DNA of 44,883 nucleotides. It comes from Actinomycetales bacterium mxb001 (GTDB lineage Bacteria; Actinomycetota; Actinomycetes; S36-B12). The stretch is taken from the NCBI GenBank assembly GCA_004379115.1, contig NBNH01000039.1:1-44883 (forward strand), given 5' to 3'. Of this stretch, positions 15,697 to 19,586 are shown piece after piece (position 1 is the stretch's first letter; every line of letters starts with the position of its first letter). The notes under the pieces were generated by a model. It made no database searches, had not been told where the DNA came from, and worked only from the letters and a program-made list of their open reading frames with translations. The translations under genes and the position numbers were made by a program.

Positions 15697-16647
15697 TCAC
15701 GCTTCCCATCGCAGCCAGGCGAAACCACCAAGACCAGCCGTCTGTCGCAGGCGCTGCGCGGCAAAGTAGCGCTCGACGTCGGCCGGTGATGCGCGGTCGG
15801 GCAGGGACGCCGATGCGAGCTCATCGCGCTGCCAGGTCAACGTCGTGCGCGGTACAGCAGCCTGACAGGCATCGACTGCCACGTGGGCGGTGATACCCAC
15901 GGTGCCATCGGGCATCGGTGCGACGACGCGTCCACCGCGGTATCCGGTGAGCGTTCCGCCGCGCAGCGCGTCGAGTCGCTCGGGTCGGCAGTGCCCGTAG
16001 TCGACCGCGAGAGCGAGGCCCTGTCTCACCAGTCCCGTCATCCAGGACCACGCGGCGTCGCGGGCGAGGCCCACCTCGGCACGATCACCGGGGTCTCGCA
16101 GCGGCCACCACCGCCGCATCCACTCTCGTGTCGCCGCTGCATCGACGCCCACCCTCGCGCAGGCCACCTCGTCATCGAGTGACGGTCCGAGCCTTTCCGC
16201 CCCCGCCGTGCCGACGAGCACCAATCGATCCAACCCGTCGGCATCGCGCTCGACGATGTCGACCGGGATCTCATCAAGCCACTCGTGAGCCATGACCACG
16301 CCGCGGATCGGCGTACCGGGCACGTCGTCGGGCATCTCCGCAGCGACACCCTCCACTCCCGGAACGAATCCCTCGCGAACATCGACCGCCACCCACCGCG
16401 CCCTGTTTGCGAGCTCGGCACAACGTTCGCGCACGCTCGCCAGGAACGCGCCGTCTGCCGCTCCGATGTCGATCACGGTGAAGTCAGCGGGCGCGCGGAG
16501 TCGATCATCGACGGCGCGCACCACCTCGGCCATCGCATCGGCGAGGACATCCCCGGCCGACGTGGCGAAGTGATCACCGGGGGTCGTCCGTGCCCAGAAC
16601 TCCCGCGCCGAGCGGCGCCACGCCGTCGACCACGTGACCTCCGTCAT
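15697..16647 (-). CDS. MidA/NDUFAF7-family (DUF185) SAM-dependent methyltransferase
   Basis: FTVIDIGAADGAFLASVRERC (SAM motif I), GVVMAHEWLDEIPVDIVER (equivalent of the G/A-N/H-E-x-x-D family motif), LALAVDYGH near the C-terminus. Confidence 0.78.
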   Translation of the reverse strand: MTEVTWSTAWRRSAREFWARTTPGDHFATSAGDVLADAMAEVVRAVDDRLRAPADFTVIDIGAADGAFLASVRERCAELANRARWVAVDVREGFVPGVEGVAAEMPDDVPGTPIRGVVMAHEWLDEIPVDIVERDADGLDRLVLVGTAGAERLGPSLDDEVACARVGVDAAATREWMRRWWPLRDPGDRAEVGLARDAAWSWMTGLVRQGLALAVDYGHCRPERLDALRGGTLTGYRGGRVVAPMPDGTVGITAHVAVDACQAAVPRTTLTWQRDELASASLPDRASPADVERYFAAQRLRQTAGLGGFAWLRWEA

Positions 16648-17930
16648 GGCACGCGACGGGCCCGGCGCATGAGGACCAGTTCCTCATCCGCGAGGGGACG
16701 GACACTCGCGTACGACAGGTGTCGGGCGGAGACATCGACAGGCCCGGGTGCCGTATCGGCATGCAGGGAGGCCAACCCCAATCGCCGCTCCCACGGACCC
16801 TGGGTGATGCGCAGTGACTGAACGCGGGCGTGGGGTGCCAGGCCCAGTCGGCGCGTGATGCGGCCCGACCGCGCGGCGATCACCTGGGGGGTGATGGCGC
16901 ACGCGAGGTACCTCCACGCGAAGGGCGAGCGCCATCGGGCTTGTCGCGGTGCTTCATCGAAGACCAGCGAATCGACATCGACGCCGGGAAGCACTTCGGC
17001 GATGAGGGCCAGTGCTTCAGCACGCGGAGCAACGGGTATCAGCACGTCGGGACGTAGCTCATCGCCTTCGACGCCGGCGATGGTGAGGGTCACCCGCACC
17101 CAGTTCCAACGTCGCCACAGCAGCGGGGAGACGAGCTCGACGGCATGGACGCGTGCGGCGGGGACCGTGCGGACCTGGGTGGACAGCAGGCCACGACGGA
17201 TGCGCAGCCCATCCGGGGTTCGCGTCACGCGAAAGCCGTAGTTGGCGAGGAACTGCGTGACGACCGACAGGATCGGAAGGCCGCCGGTGACCATGGCGAG
17301 GACAAGCGCAACCGGACCCTGGGCCCACAGAGTGAACGCGATGAACGCCACACTGGCCAGCAGGAGCGCTGCCGTCGTGGACCGCAGAAGGAGACCCGCA
17401 AGCAACCGGCCATTGGGGACGGCTGCCAGAGGAATCTCCGGCGCCTCCAACGCGCCATCGGACGACTCGGCACTCTCGCGTCGAGCGAGTTCCAGGATGG
17501 CGCCGCGCAGAGCATCGGCCTCCGCCCGCGTCAGGTACTTCAGGACGATGCGCGAATCGCCAACTCCGGCCACCTCGACGCGCAGTTCGACAAGACCCAC
17601 GAGGCGTGCCACGAACGGCGTGACGACATCGACGCTCTGCAGGCGCGAAAGTTGCAGACGGCGCGCGGAGCGCTGGATCACCCCGGAGTCGACACGCAGG
17701 TCCCCGTCGTCATCGATCCAGAAGGTACGACGCCACCATGCCAGCCAGGAAAGCGCGGCGAATACCGCGAATCCAACGACGAGCACGATGACGATGGTCA
17801 GGATGAACGGCGCCCCGCGCCGTTCGATGAAGCCGGCACCGGGGCCAATGAAGAAGATGGCCAGGGCCGGCACGGCGGGCACCGCTTGGACGAGCGGACT
17901 CAGCGGATTGGTGCGGCGCGGTTGCGTCAC
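16644..17930 (-). CDS. PH-domain-containing membrane protein (YdbT-like, bPH_2 repeats)
   Basis: 428 aa, several TM segments, repeated RLQLSRLQSVDVVTPFVARLVGLVELRVEVAG-type and IRRGLLSTQVRTVPAARVHAVELVSPLLWRRWNWVRVTLTIAG segments. Confidence 0.85.
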   Translation of the reverse strand: MTQPRRTNPLSPLVQAVPAVPALAIFFIGPGAGFIERRGAPFILTIVIVLVVGFAVFAALSWLAWWRRTFWIDDDGDLRVDSGVIQRSARRLQLSRLQSVDVVTPFVARLVGLVELRVEVAGVGDSRIVLKYLTRAEADALRGAILELARRESAESSDGALEAPEIPLAAVPNGRLLAGLLLRSTTAALLLASVAFIAFTLWAQGPVALVLAMVTGGLPILSVVTQFLANYGFRVTRTPDGLRIRRGLLSTQVRTVPAARVHAVELVSPLLWRRWNWVRVTLTIAGVEGDELRPDVLIPVAPRAEALALIAEVLPGVDVDSLVFDEAPRQARWRSPFAWRYLACAITPQVIAARSGRITRRLGLAPHARVQSLRITQGPWERRLGLASLHADTAPGPVDVSARHLSYASVRPLADEELVLMRRARRVP

Positions 17931-18424
17931 AGCCCCGCGGTCCTCTCCTCGCCCCTGGCCGCGAGTCGATCGCGAAGACCCGCCGCCTCGTCAGGCGGCA
18001 GACCGGGGATCGCCGCATCGGTGGTCGCGGCAGCGGTATGCAACTGCACCGTGGCGATGCCCAGCCAGCGATCGATGGGCCCGGCACGCAGGTCCACCAT
18101 CTGCATGCGCCCGTAGGGCACGATCACCAGACGGCGAAGGATCAATCCGCTGACGACCAGCAGGTCGTTGTCTCGCTCGGCGTAGCCGAAGGACGCAACA
18201 CGGCGGCCGATGAGCCACCACACCCACACGAAGGCGACCACTGCGATCGCGGCATAGGCGATCGTCCAAGCGGGCGCGAGCGGGCTCACCCACAGGATCG
18301 CGCCCCCCGCGAGGACCACGACGTAGACGAGGAGGAGCGTGATGCGGCGGGCGGTGGCCAAGCGCGGTGAGACGGGGACCCATCCATCAGCGGGTGGGGC
18401 AAAGGCGTCATCGACGTCACCCAT
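17927..18424 (-). CDS. PH-domain-containing protein (YdbS-like, bPH_2)
   Basis: Two TMs, then LLVVSGLILRRLVIVPYGRMQMVDLRAGPIDRWLGIATVQLHTA, typical of bPH_2. Confidence 0.87.
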   Translation of the reverse strand: MGDVDDAFAPPADGWVPVSPRLATARRITLLLVYVVVLAGGAILWVSPLAPAWTIAYAAIAVVAFVWVWWLIGRRVASFGYAERDNDLLVVSGLILRRLVIVPYGRMQMVDLRAGPIDRWLGIATVQLHTAAATTDAAIPGLPPDEAAGLRDRLAARGEERTAGL

Positions 18425-18467
18425 GGCATCACTCTGTCACGCGCCGGATCACTGGCATGCTGTCGGC

Positions 18468-19586
18468 ATGGCGGAGGTGACGGTCGGCATCGGCATGGCC
18501 CCGGCCGACATCACGCTCGACCTCGGTGACCTTCACCCGTCCGGACACGGCGCCCTGCGCATCGCCTGTCGCGTCGATGACGGCGTCGTCACCGCCGCCG
18601 ATCCCCAGCCCGGGCTGTTGCATCGCGGTACGGAGAAGCTGCTCGAGGTCCGCGACTACCGACAGGCGCTGATGCTGGCGAATCGGCATGACTGGCTGAG
18701 CGCCGTCACCTCCGAAGTCGCGCTGGCACTGGCGGTCGAGGAACTCCTCGGCCTGGAATCTCCGCCGCGGGCCGTCTGGTTGCGCACGATCCTGTGCGAA
18801 ATCAATCGGGTAGCAGCCGCCCTCATGCATGCCGCCGGTGCTGCCGCGCTTCCTCCGCATGGACTCGCACCGCGCGACGTCCCGGGGATGCGGGCACGCG
18901 AGGCACTCCAACGCTGCCTTGAATCGATCTCCGGCGGTCGCGTTCACGCCATGATCACGCGGATCGGTGGACTGGCACACGACGCACCGGCTGGCTGGCG
19001 AGGAGAGGTCGAGCAGGCAGTCGTGGTCGTCCGCGAGGAGCTGCCCGCGCTACGCGAGGCTGTCGCACGCACCATCCCGGCGGGCCTTGCGGCGCTGACC
19101 CAGGAGCAGGCGATTGCCTACGGCACGAGCGGTCCCGTTGCCCGCGCTACGGGCCTCGATATGGATGTGCGCCGCGATACGCCCTATCTGGCGTATGGCG
19201 AAGTTGCCGGCGCGATTCGCGTGGTGACGGCCGAAACGGGAGATGCCCGAGCGCGCTACGACGTCCTGCTCGATCAAGTGGAGGCCGACCTGCCGGTCAT
19301 CCTGGCCCTGCTCGAAGGGCTCCCCACGGGACCCGTGAACGTGTCACTGCCGAAGGTCGTGCGCGCACCCGAAGGATCGGCGTACGGCATCGTGGAGTCA
19401 GCAACGGGACGCAGCGGCGCCTACGTCGTCTCCGTCGGCGAGACGACACCGTGGCGCGTACGACTGCGAACGCCGTCGTATGCACACGCCCAGGCCATGA
19501 AGGTGGGACTACCGGGGACGCGCCTCGACGACCTCGCGGGAGCCATCGGTTCGTTCATGTGCGTGGCCGGGGACACCGACCACTGA
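18468..19586 (+). CDS. Orphan NADH-quinone oxidoreductase subunit D (NuoD/49-kDa)-like protein
   Basis: LGDLHPSGHGALRI, GLLHRGTEKLLEVRDYRQALMLANRHDWLSAV, ILCEINRVAAALM, RIGGLAHDAPAGW and C-terminal VRLRTPSYAHAQAM...DDLAGAIGSFMCVAGDTDH match NuoD along its length. ATG at 18468 used. Confidence 0.88.
   Translation: MAEVTVGIGMAPADITLDLGDLHPSGHGALRIACRVDDGVVTAADPQPGLLHRGTEKLLEVRDYRQALMLANRHDWLSAVTSEVALALAVEELLGLESPPRAVWLRTILCEINRVAAALMHAAGAAALPPHGLAPRDVPGMRAREALQRCLESISGGRVHAMITRIGGLAHDAPAGWRGEVEQAVVVVREELPALREAVARTIPAGLAALTQEQAIAYGTSGPVARATGLDMDVRRDTPYLAYGEVAGAIRVVTAETGDARARYDVLLDQVEADLPVILALLEGLPTGPVNVSLPKVVRAPEGSAYGIVESATGRSGAYVVSVGETTPWRVRLRTPSYAHAQAMKVGLPGTRLDDLAGAIGSFMCVAGDTDH

Follow-up and report, generated by a model that had tools for sequence, protein, structure and literature searches.

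We analysed a 44,883-nucleotide stretch of Actinomycetales bacterium mxb001 (contig NBNH01000039.1, positions 1 to 44,883, assembly GCA_004379115.1), referred to below as the window, in which a gene for a MidA-type methyltransferase lies near a gene for a NuoD-like complex I subunit, designated nuoD2. A second complex I Q-module ('Nuo2') probably has this methyltransferase as its own dedicated MidA, which is predicted to dimethylate NuoD2 at the counterpart of Arg85 of mitochondrial NDUFS2. In mitochondria, this dimethyl mark is made by NDUFAF7 (PMC3829151), and dimethyl-arginine is also carried by the bacterium Paracoccus (PMC8042128, PMC11522691), the only bacterium in which it had been reported as of 2024 (PMC11522691). 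The role of MidA in prokaryotes has been inferred in silico only (PMC12455994), and no prior description of a bacterial MidA-NuoD link was found in the literature covered, which did not include the 2018 Cell Reports MidA paper. Gene content, linkage, residues and family membership are shown here from sequence; methylation, ferredoxin input and docking are predictions.

The methyltransferase and its NuoD-like neighbour

15697..16647, minus strand: midA-like gene (PF02636/DUF185/COG1565, NDUFAF7 homologue), 316 aa; from PF02636, PDB profile search, AlphaFold/Foldseek and motifs
18468..19586, plus strand: nuoD2, assigned as the 49-kDa subunit (NuoD, R-type) of a second complex I Q-module that lacks the NADH module; from PF00346, residues and the operons of relatives
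18534..18551, plus strand: HPSGHG, quinone-pocket beta1-beta2 loop; the second His (18546-18548) is His59 of NDUFS2
18624..18626, plus strand: Arg53 codon of NuoD2, predicted as the methylation site and equivalent to Arg85 of mature NDUFS2, inside HRGTEKL (18621-18641)
18693..18695, plus strand: Trp76 codon (TGG) at the Tyr108 position of NDUFS2; Trp in all NuoD2 examined

The window methyltransferase is a genuine but divergent MidA. Its gene gives the sole PF02636 (Methyltransf_28) match in the genome, covering residues 38-265 with an E-value of 2.2e-16 and a score of 60.5 bits (cut-off 23.3), so that the hidden Markov model (HMM) places it in MidA and not in another family. A PDB search with the single sequence gave no match and a profile was needed: built from 43 actinobacterial MidAs, it placed 4f3n/4g67, 1zkd and Dictyostelium MidA (5ztz/5zu0/5zzw) first (E-values 2e-59 to 2e-43), with just one marginal match (E-value 0.0014) after the MidA/COG1565 structures. 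The AlphaFold model (mean predicted local distance difference test score, pLDDT, 94.9) had MidA/COG1565 structures at all of Foldseek ranks 1-6, with template modelling (TM) scores of about 0.7. Homology and fold are shared with the solved MidA/COG1565 proteins over the full length. The DUF185/MidA assignment of an earlier, sequence-only reading of this DNA thus agrees with the HMM, the PDB profile search and the structure comparison. The family motifs are all kept, namely S-adenosylmethionine (SAM) motif I, (N/H)E.LD..P, DYG and (D/G)ITAHV, and in the window protein the motif segments read HFATS, VIDIGAADG (SAM motif I), MAHEWLDEIP, LALAVDYGH and GITAHV; E122, D125, D216 and Y217 are invariant across the 43 MidAs.

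The nuoD2 product matches PF00346 (E-value 5e-48) and scores far below the NuoD equivalog cut-off (TIGR01962, 247.9 versus 459). With this shortfall and a Trp at the Tyr108 position, a point absent from the sequence-only reading, it fails canonical NuoD membership. The reading frame starts with the ATG at 18468, the mechanical open reading frame beginning further 5' at 18339, and the residues corresponding to H55, H59, R85, E88 and K89 are intact. The sequence-only reading had equated the HRGTEKL arginine with Arg85 by counting from Tyr108; the count is correct, and the arginine it saw retained in the window is invariant in 146/146 NuoD2 sequences.

The canonical NuoD of this genome, encoded on a separate contig (G000:C320), reads HTGIEK, with Thr at position 85; the residue that NDUFAF7 modifies is thus present in no NuoD but NuoD2. 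An Arg(NDUFS2)/Thr(NDUFS7) pair in Yarrowia has been contrasted with Thr/Arg in Thermus (PMC8042128). In 20 MidA-positive genomes and this one, Thr85 of canonical NuoD is matched by Arg in canonical NuoB, wherever covered, like the Thermus type. Every NuoD2 read has Arg and every NuoB2 read has Thr, as in Yarrowia and mammalian complex I, with no exception. Unlike in the Thermus-type arrangement, both states thus occur in one genome, each in its own module. From these residues, the natural partner of NuoD2 is predicted to be NuoB2, not canonical NuoB.

Linkage of midA and nuoD2 in actinobacteria

All three genes were counted in the same 247 genomes of the class, with NuoD2 in 95, MidA in 85 and NuoB2 in 96. 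MidA and NuoD2 occurred together in 84 genomes, MidA alone in 1 and NuoD2 alone in 11 (Fisher 2e-52, a P-value that ignores phylogeny). In the lone MidA-only genome (G198), the contig stops just past a PH gene, so that the assembly does not include the place where nuoD2 would be expected. Two of the 11 NuoD2-only genomes (G248, G306) contain a MidA that was found by a custom HMM and missed by Pfam, and one of the 11 is interrupted by a contig end.

The two genes are within 11 kb of each other in 80/84 pairs, with midA upstream on the same strand in 59, downstream and convergent in 16, and upstream and divergent, as in the window, in 5. A second collection placed midA within 10 kb in 73 of the 80 nuoD2 loci fetched. 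Phylum-wide, the pair lay within 25 kb in 28/48 MidA-positive genomes from 12 families, and one of the 48 had no listed NuoD2. In at least four outer families (f42, f21, f27 and f16), midA directly follows nuoN2. The linkage carries weight because the pair stays joined through at least four arrangements in two unrelated contexts. The earlier proposal of a genetically linked enzyme-substrate pair in bacteria is thereby partly supported: the linkage, by co-occurrence and by neighbourhood, extends well beyond the lineage of the window, and the pair remains a putative one of enzyme and substrate.

Several points weigh against a dedicated MidA acting on NuoD2. The co-occurrence counts are not phylogenetically independent; midA and nuoD2 lie on different contigs in 19 outer genomes among the 48 MidA-positive ones of the phylum; and NuoD2 occurs without MidA in lineages f14, f18, f37 and f45 and in some of f1, f53, f55 and f80. 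Identity between the window MidA and its solved homologues is low, about 14-21%, and a Wolbachia MidA has been reported to methylate DNA (PMC12455994). All 146 NuoD2 sequences have Trp at the Tyr108 position, where canonical NuoD keeps Tyr, so the second complex may differ in its quinone chemistry. Arg85 is also kept in the NuoD2 of MidA-less genomes and is therefore needed even unmodified; for the same reason, the retained arginine is by itself weak evidence, and the argument that its retention proves methylation was rejected.

The Wolbachia report and the persistence of Arg85 without MidA would also fit an alternative in which MidA methylates another protein, RNA or DNA and stays near nuoD2 only because both belong to a fol/pan/nad block of Actinomycetia that is old and stable; both genes do lie within the conserved ftsH-fol...pan-nad-lysS block. 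We consider this unlikely: MidA tracks the presence of NuoD2 by 84 to 1, midA shifts within the class (the 59/16/5 arrangements) yet remains with nuoD2, and in the outer lineages the two genes are joined somewhere else altogether, in the nuo2 operon.

MidA might instead serve NuoD2/NuoB2 as an assembly chaperone, its activity as a methyltransferase being lost or of no importance in this branch. Such a role would suit an Arg85 that does not need MidA, the greater divergence of actinomycetial MidAs (PF02636 E-values of about 1e-15, versus 1e-60 in outer lineages) and the precedent of CI-PIMT, an inactive methyltransferase-fold subunit of Paracoccus complex I (PMC11522691). The conservation of SAM motif I (VIDIGAADG), NE.LD and DYG, and of the four invariant residues, makes it a very improbable account.

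The second complex I Q-module

The sequence-only reading had described the window NuoD as an orphan. This description was rejected: a second NuoB-NuoC-NuoI set (L008, about 12969-14235) lies several kb downstream of the canonical nuo genes on G000:C320, and many relatives have whole NADH-module-less operons. From its residues and the operons of relatives, the window NuoD is assigned as the D subunit of Nuo2. Ligand motifs for the iron-sulfur clusters N6a, N6b and N2 are present in the Nuo2 subunits of this genome. NuoD2 and NuoB2 occur together in 91 of the 100 class genomes that have either (Fisher 8e-56).

In outer Actinobacteriota, nuoD2 homologues sit between nuoC2 and nuoH2/nuoI2, in operons of the form nuoB2-C2-D2-H2-I2-K2-L2-M2-N2 that lack the NADH module; A2 and J2 were not searched separately. 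In Actinomycetia, nuoD2 is outside the nuo2 operon, beside midA, and the remaining operon is nuoB2-C2-H2-I2-K2-L2-M2 (Streptomyces-like genomes and others) or nuoB2-C2-I2 (including this genome). Of an 11-subunit-like gene set, outer lineages have B2-C2-D2-H2-I2-K2-L2-M2-N2 in one operon; this genome has only B2, C2, D2 and I2 plus a single NuoH, and a second NuoH was not found.

The nuoB2-C2-I2 genes diverge from korAB, encoding a 2-oxoacid:ferredoxin oxidoreductase (L008 9940-14235; Pfam NuoB/NuoC/ferredoxin/POR), and in 13 of the 20 class genomes examined korAB and nuoB2 are no more than about 8 kb apart. Its product is a candidate electron donor for the NADH-module-less complex I.

The true His59 is kept in 132/132 other NuoD2 sequences; of the 8 class genomes without MidA, 4 have lost it (N, V, P and Q; L275, L277, L278 and L279; three families), compared with none among the MidA-positive genomes, for which the denominator of 75 in the Fisher test is an approximate class count. 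These losses suggest that MidA is dispensable once the quinone pocket decays. That the four relatives without His59 are also without midA, together with the single NuoH, could mean that NuoD2 of this genome, with its Trp at position 108 and no second NuoH, is a paralogue in decay and that the pair is vestigial. This seems quite improbable to us, as the open frames are full-length, H55, H59, R85, E88 and K89 are intact in the window NuoD2, NuoB2 has been kept along with NuoD2 in 91 genomes, and the same Trp occurs in outer lineages whose membrane arm is complete.

Proposed mechanism and relation to known systems

In analogy to NDUFAF7 acting on NDUFS2/NDUFS7, MidA would dimethylate Arg53 of NuoD2 before it docks on NuoB2, and the dimethylated arginine would then pack against cluster N2. 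The B2-C2-D2-I2 module may carry electrons from ferredoxin through N6a-N6b-N2, with KorAB as the putative donor. Lineages with H2-N2 would possess a complete ferredoxin:menaquinone proton pump; in the present lineage, the module might attach to the membrane arm of canonical complex I or work as a soluble remnant. Joined together, these steps give a more speculative and rather doubtful picture: a KorAB/ferredoxin-fed Q-module of mitochondrial Arg/Thr polarity, its D subunit dimethylated by the linked MidA, which in reduced lineages would swap onto the canonical membrane arm as B2-C2-D2-I2, so that a single proton pump would have two interchangeable input modules, for NADH and for ferredoxin.

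The system shares with NDUFAF7 and Dictyostelium MidA the enzyme family (PF02636; 5ztz is among the first structure matches), and with mitochondria the target motif HRG.EK in the 49-kDa subunit and the Arg(D)/Thr(B) interface. It differs in that the partner is a second NADH-module-less Q-module and not canonical complex I, the genes for enzyme and predicted substrate lie side by side, Trp stands in place of Tyr108, and methylation is a prediction. Paracoccus denitrificans likewise has a bacterial NuoD with dimethyl-arginine (Arg65), in its case in a 14-subunit canonical NADH complex of a proteobacterium. The outer-lineage nuo2 operons resemble the 11-subunit enzymes (Desulfitobacterium nuoABCDHIJKLMN; Moparthi and Hagerhall), both being without NuoEFG. 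Unlike those enzymes, Nuo2 coexists with a canonical complex I and has midA, with korAB beside nuoB2; in Actinomycetia, the D gene is outside the operon and membrane subunits are often lost.

Ferredoxin input has been proposed for 11-subunit complex I-like enzymes (PMC11238625), and with korAB beside nuoB2 the locus bears on the electron donor of NADH-module-less complex I. Many actinobacteria hold parts of such a second, stripped-down complex I besides the normal one. The retention of midA beside the sole Arg-bearing NuoD points to an assembly step common to actinobacteria and mitochondria. Enzyme and predicted substrate are neighbours in a bacterial lineage in which the canonical paralogue, without the target residue, is a built-in negative control, and the host group is genetically tractable via Streptomyces.

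The gene order of the window is ftsH-folE-folP-folB-folK-DUF3180-orf142, then nuoD2 on the plus strand, then PH-PH-midA-DUF2520-panC-nadB-nadC-coaX-lysS. As the sequence-only reading had it, the methyltransferase gene belongs to a minus-strand operon that starts divergently from nuoD2; its coordinates hold, and the starts of nuoD2 and PHa, the first gene of that operon, are separated by a 43-bp gap. PHa/PHb and PHb/midA each overlap by 4 bp.

17927..18424, minus strand: PHa, bPH_2 membrane protein encoded at the start of the minus operon, divergently from nuoD2; from Pfam
16644..17930, minus strand: PHb, bPH_2 (bacterial PH-domain) membrane protein, overlapping the midA start; from Pfam, a recurrent but not constant neighbour

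A possible role for these two PH-domain proteins in the pair, raised in the same reading, was not supported. The PH pair occurs at 18/80 nuoD2 loci and is absent from the outer-lineage nuo2 operons, so the proteins are occasional neighbours and were rejected as a constant part of the module. Two overlapping bPH_2 genes do recur divergent from nuoD2 in Actinomycetia even with midA on the other side (L138, L149).

Two records titled as Bifidobacterium breve metagenome-assembled genomes (L096, L147) carry the nuoD2-midA-fol block and are probably mislabelled or misbinned. A small 142-aa protein with no significant Pfam match (19589-20017, minus strand) is conserved at its place between DUF3180 and nuoD2 in 15/80 related loci.

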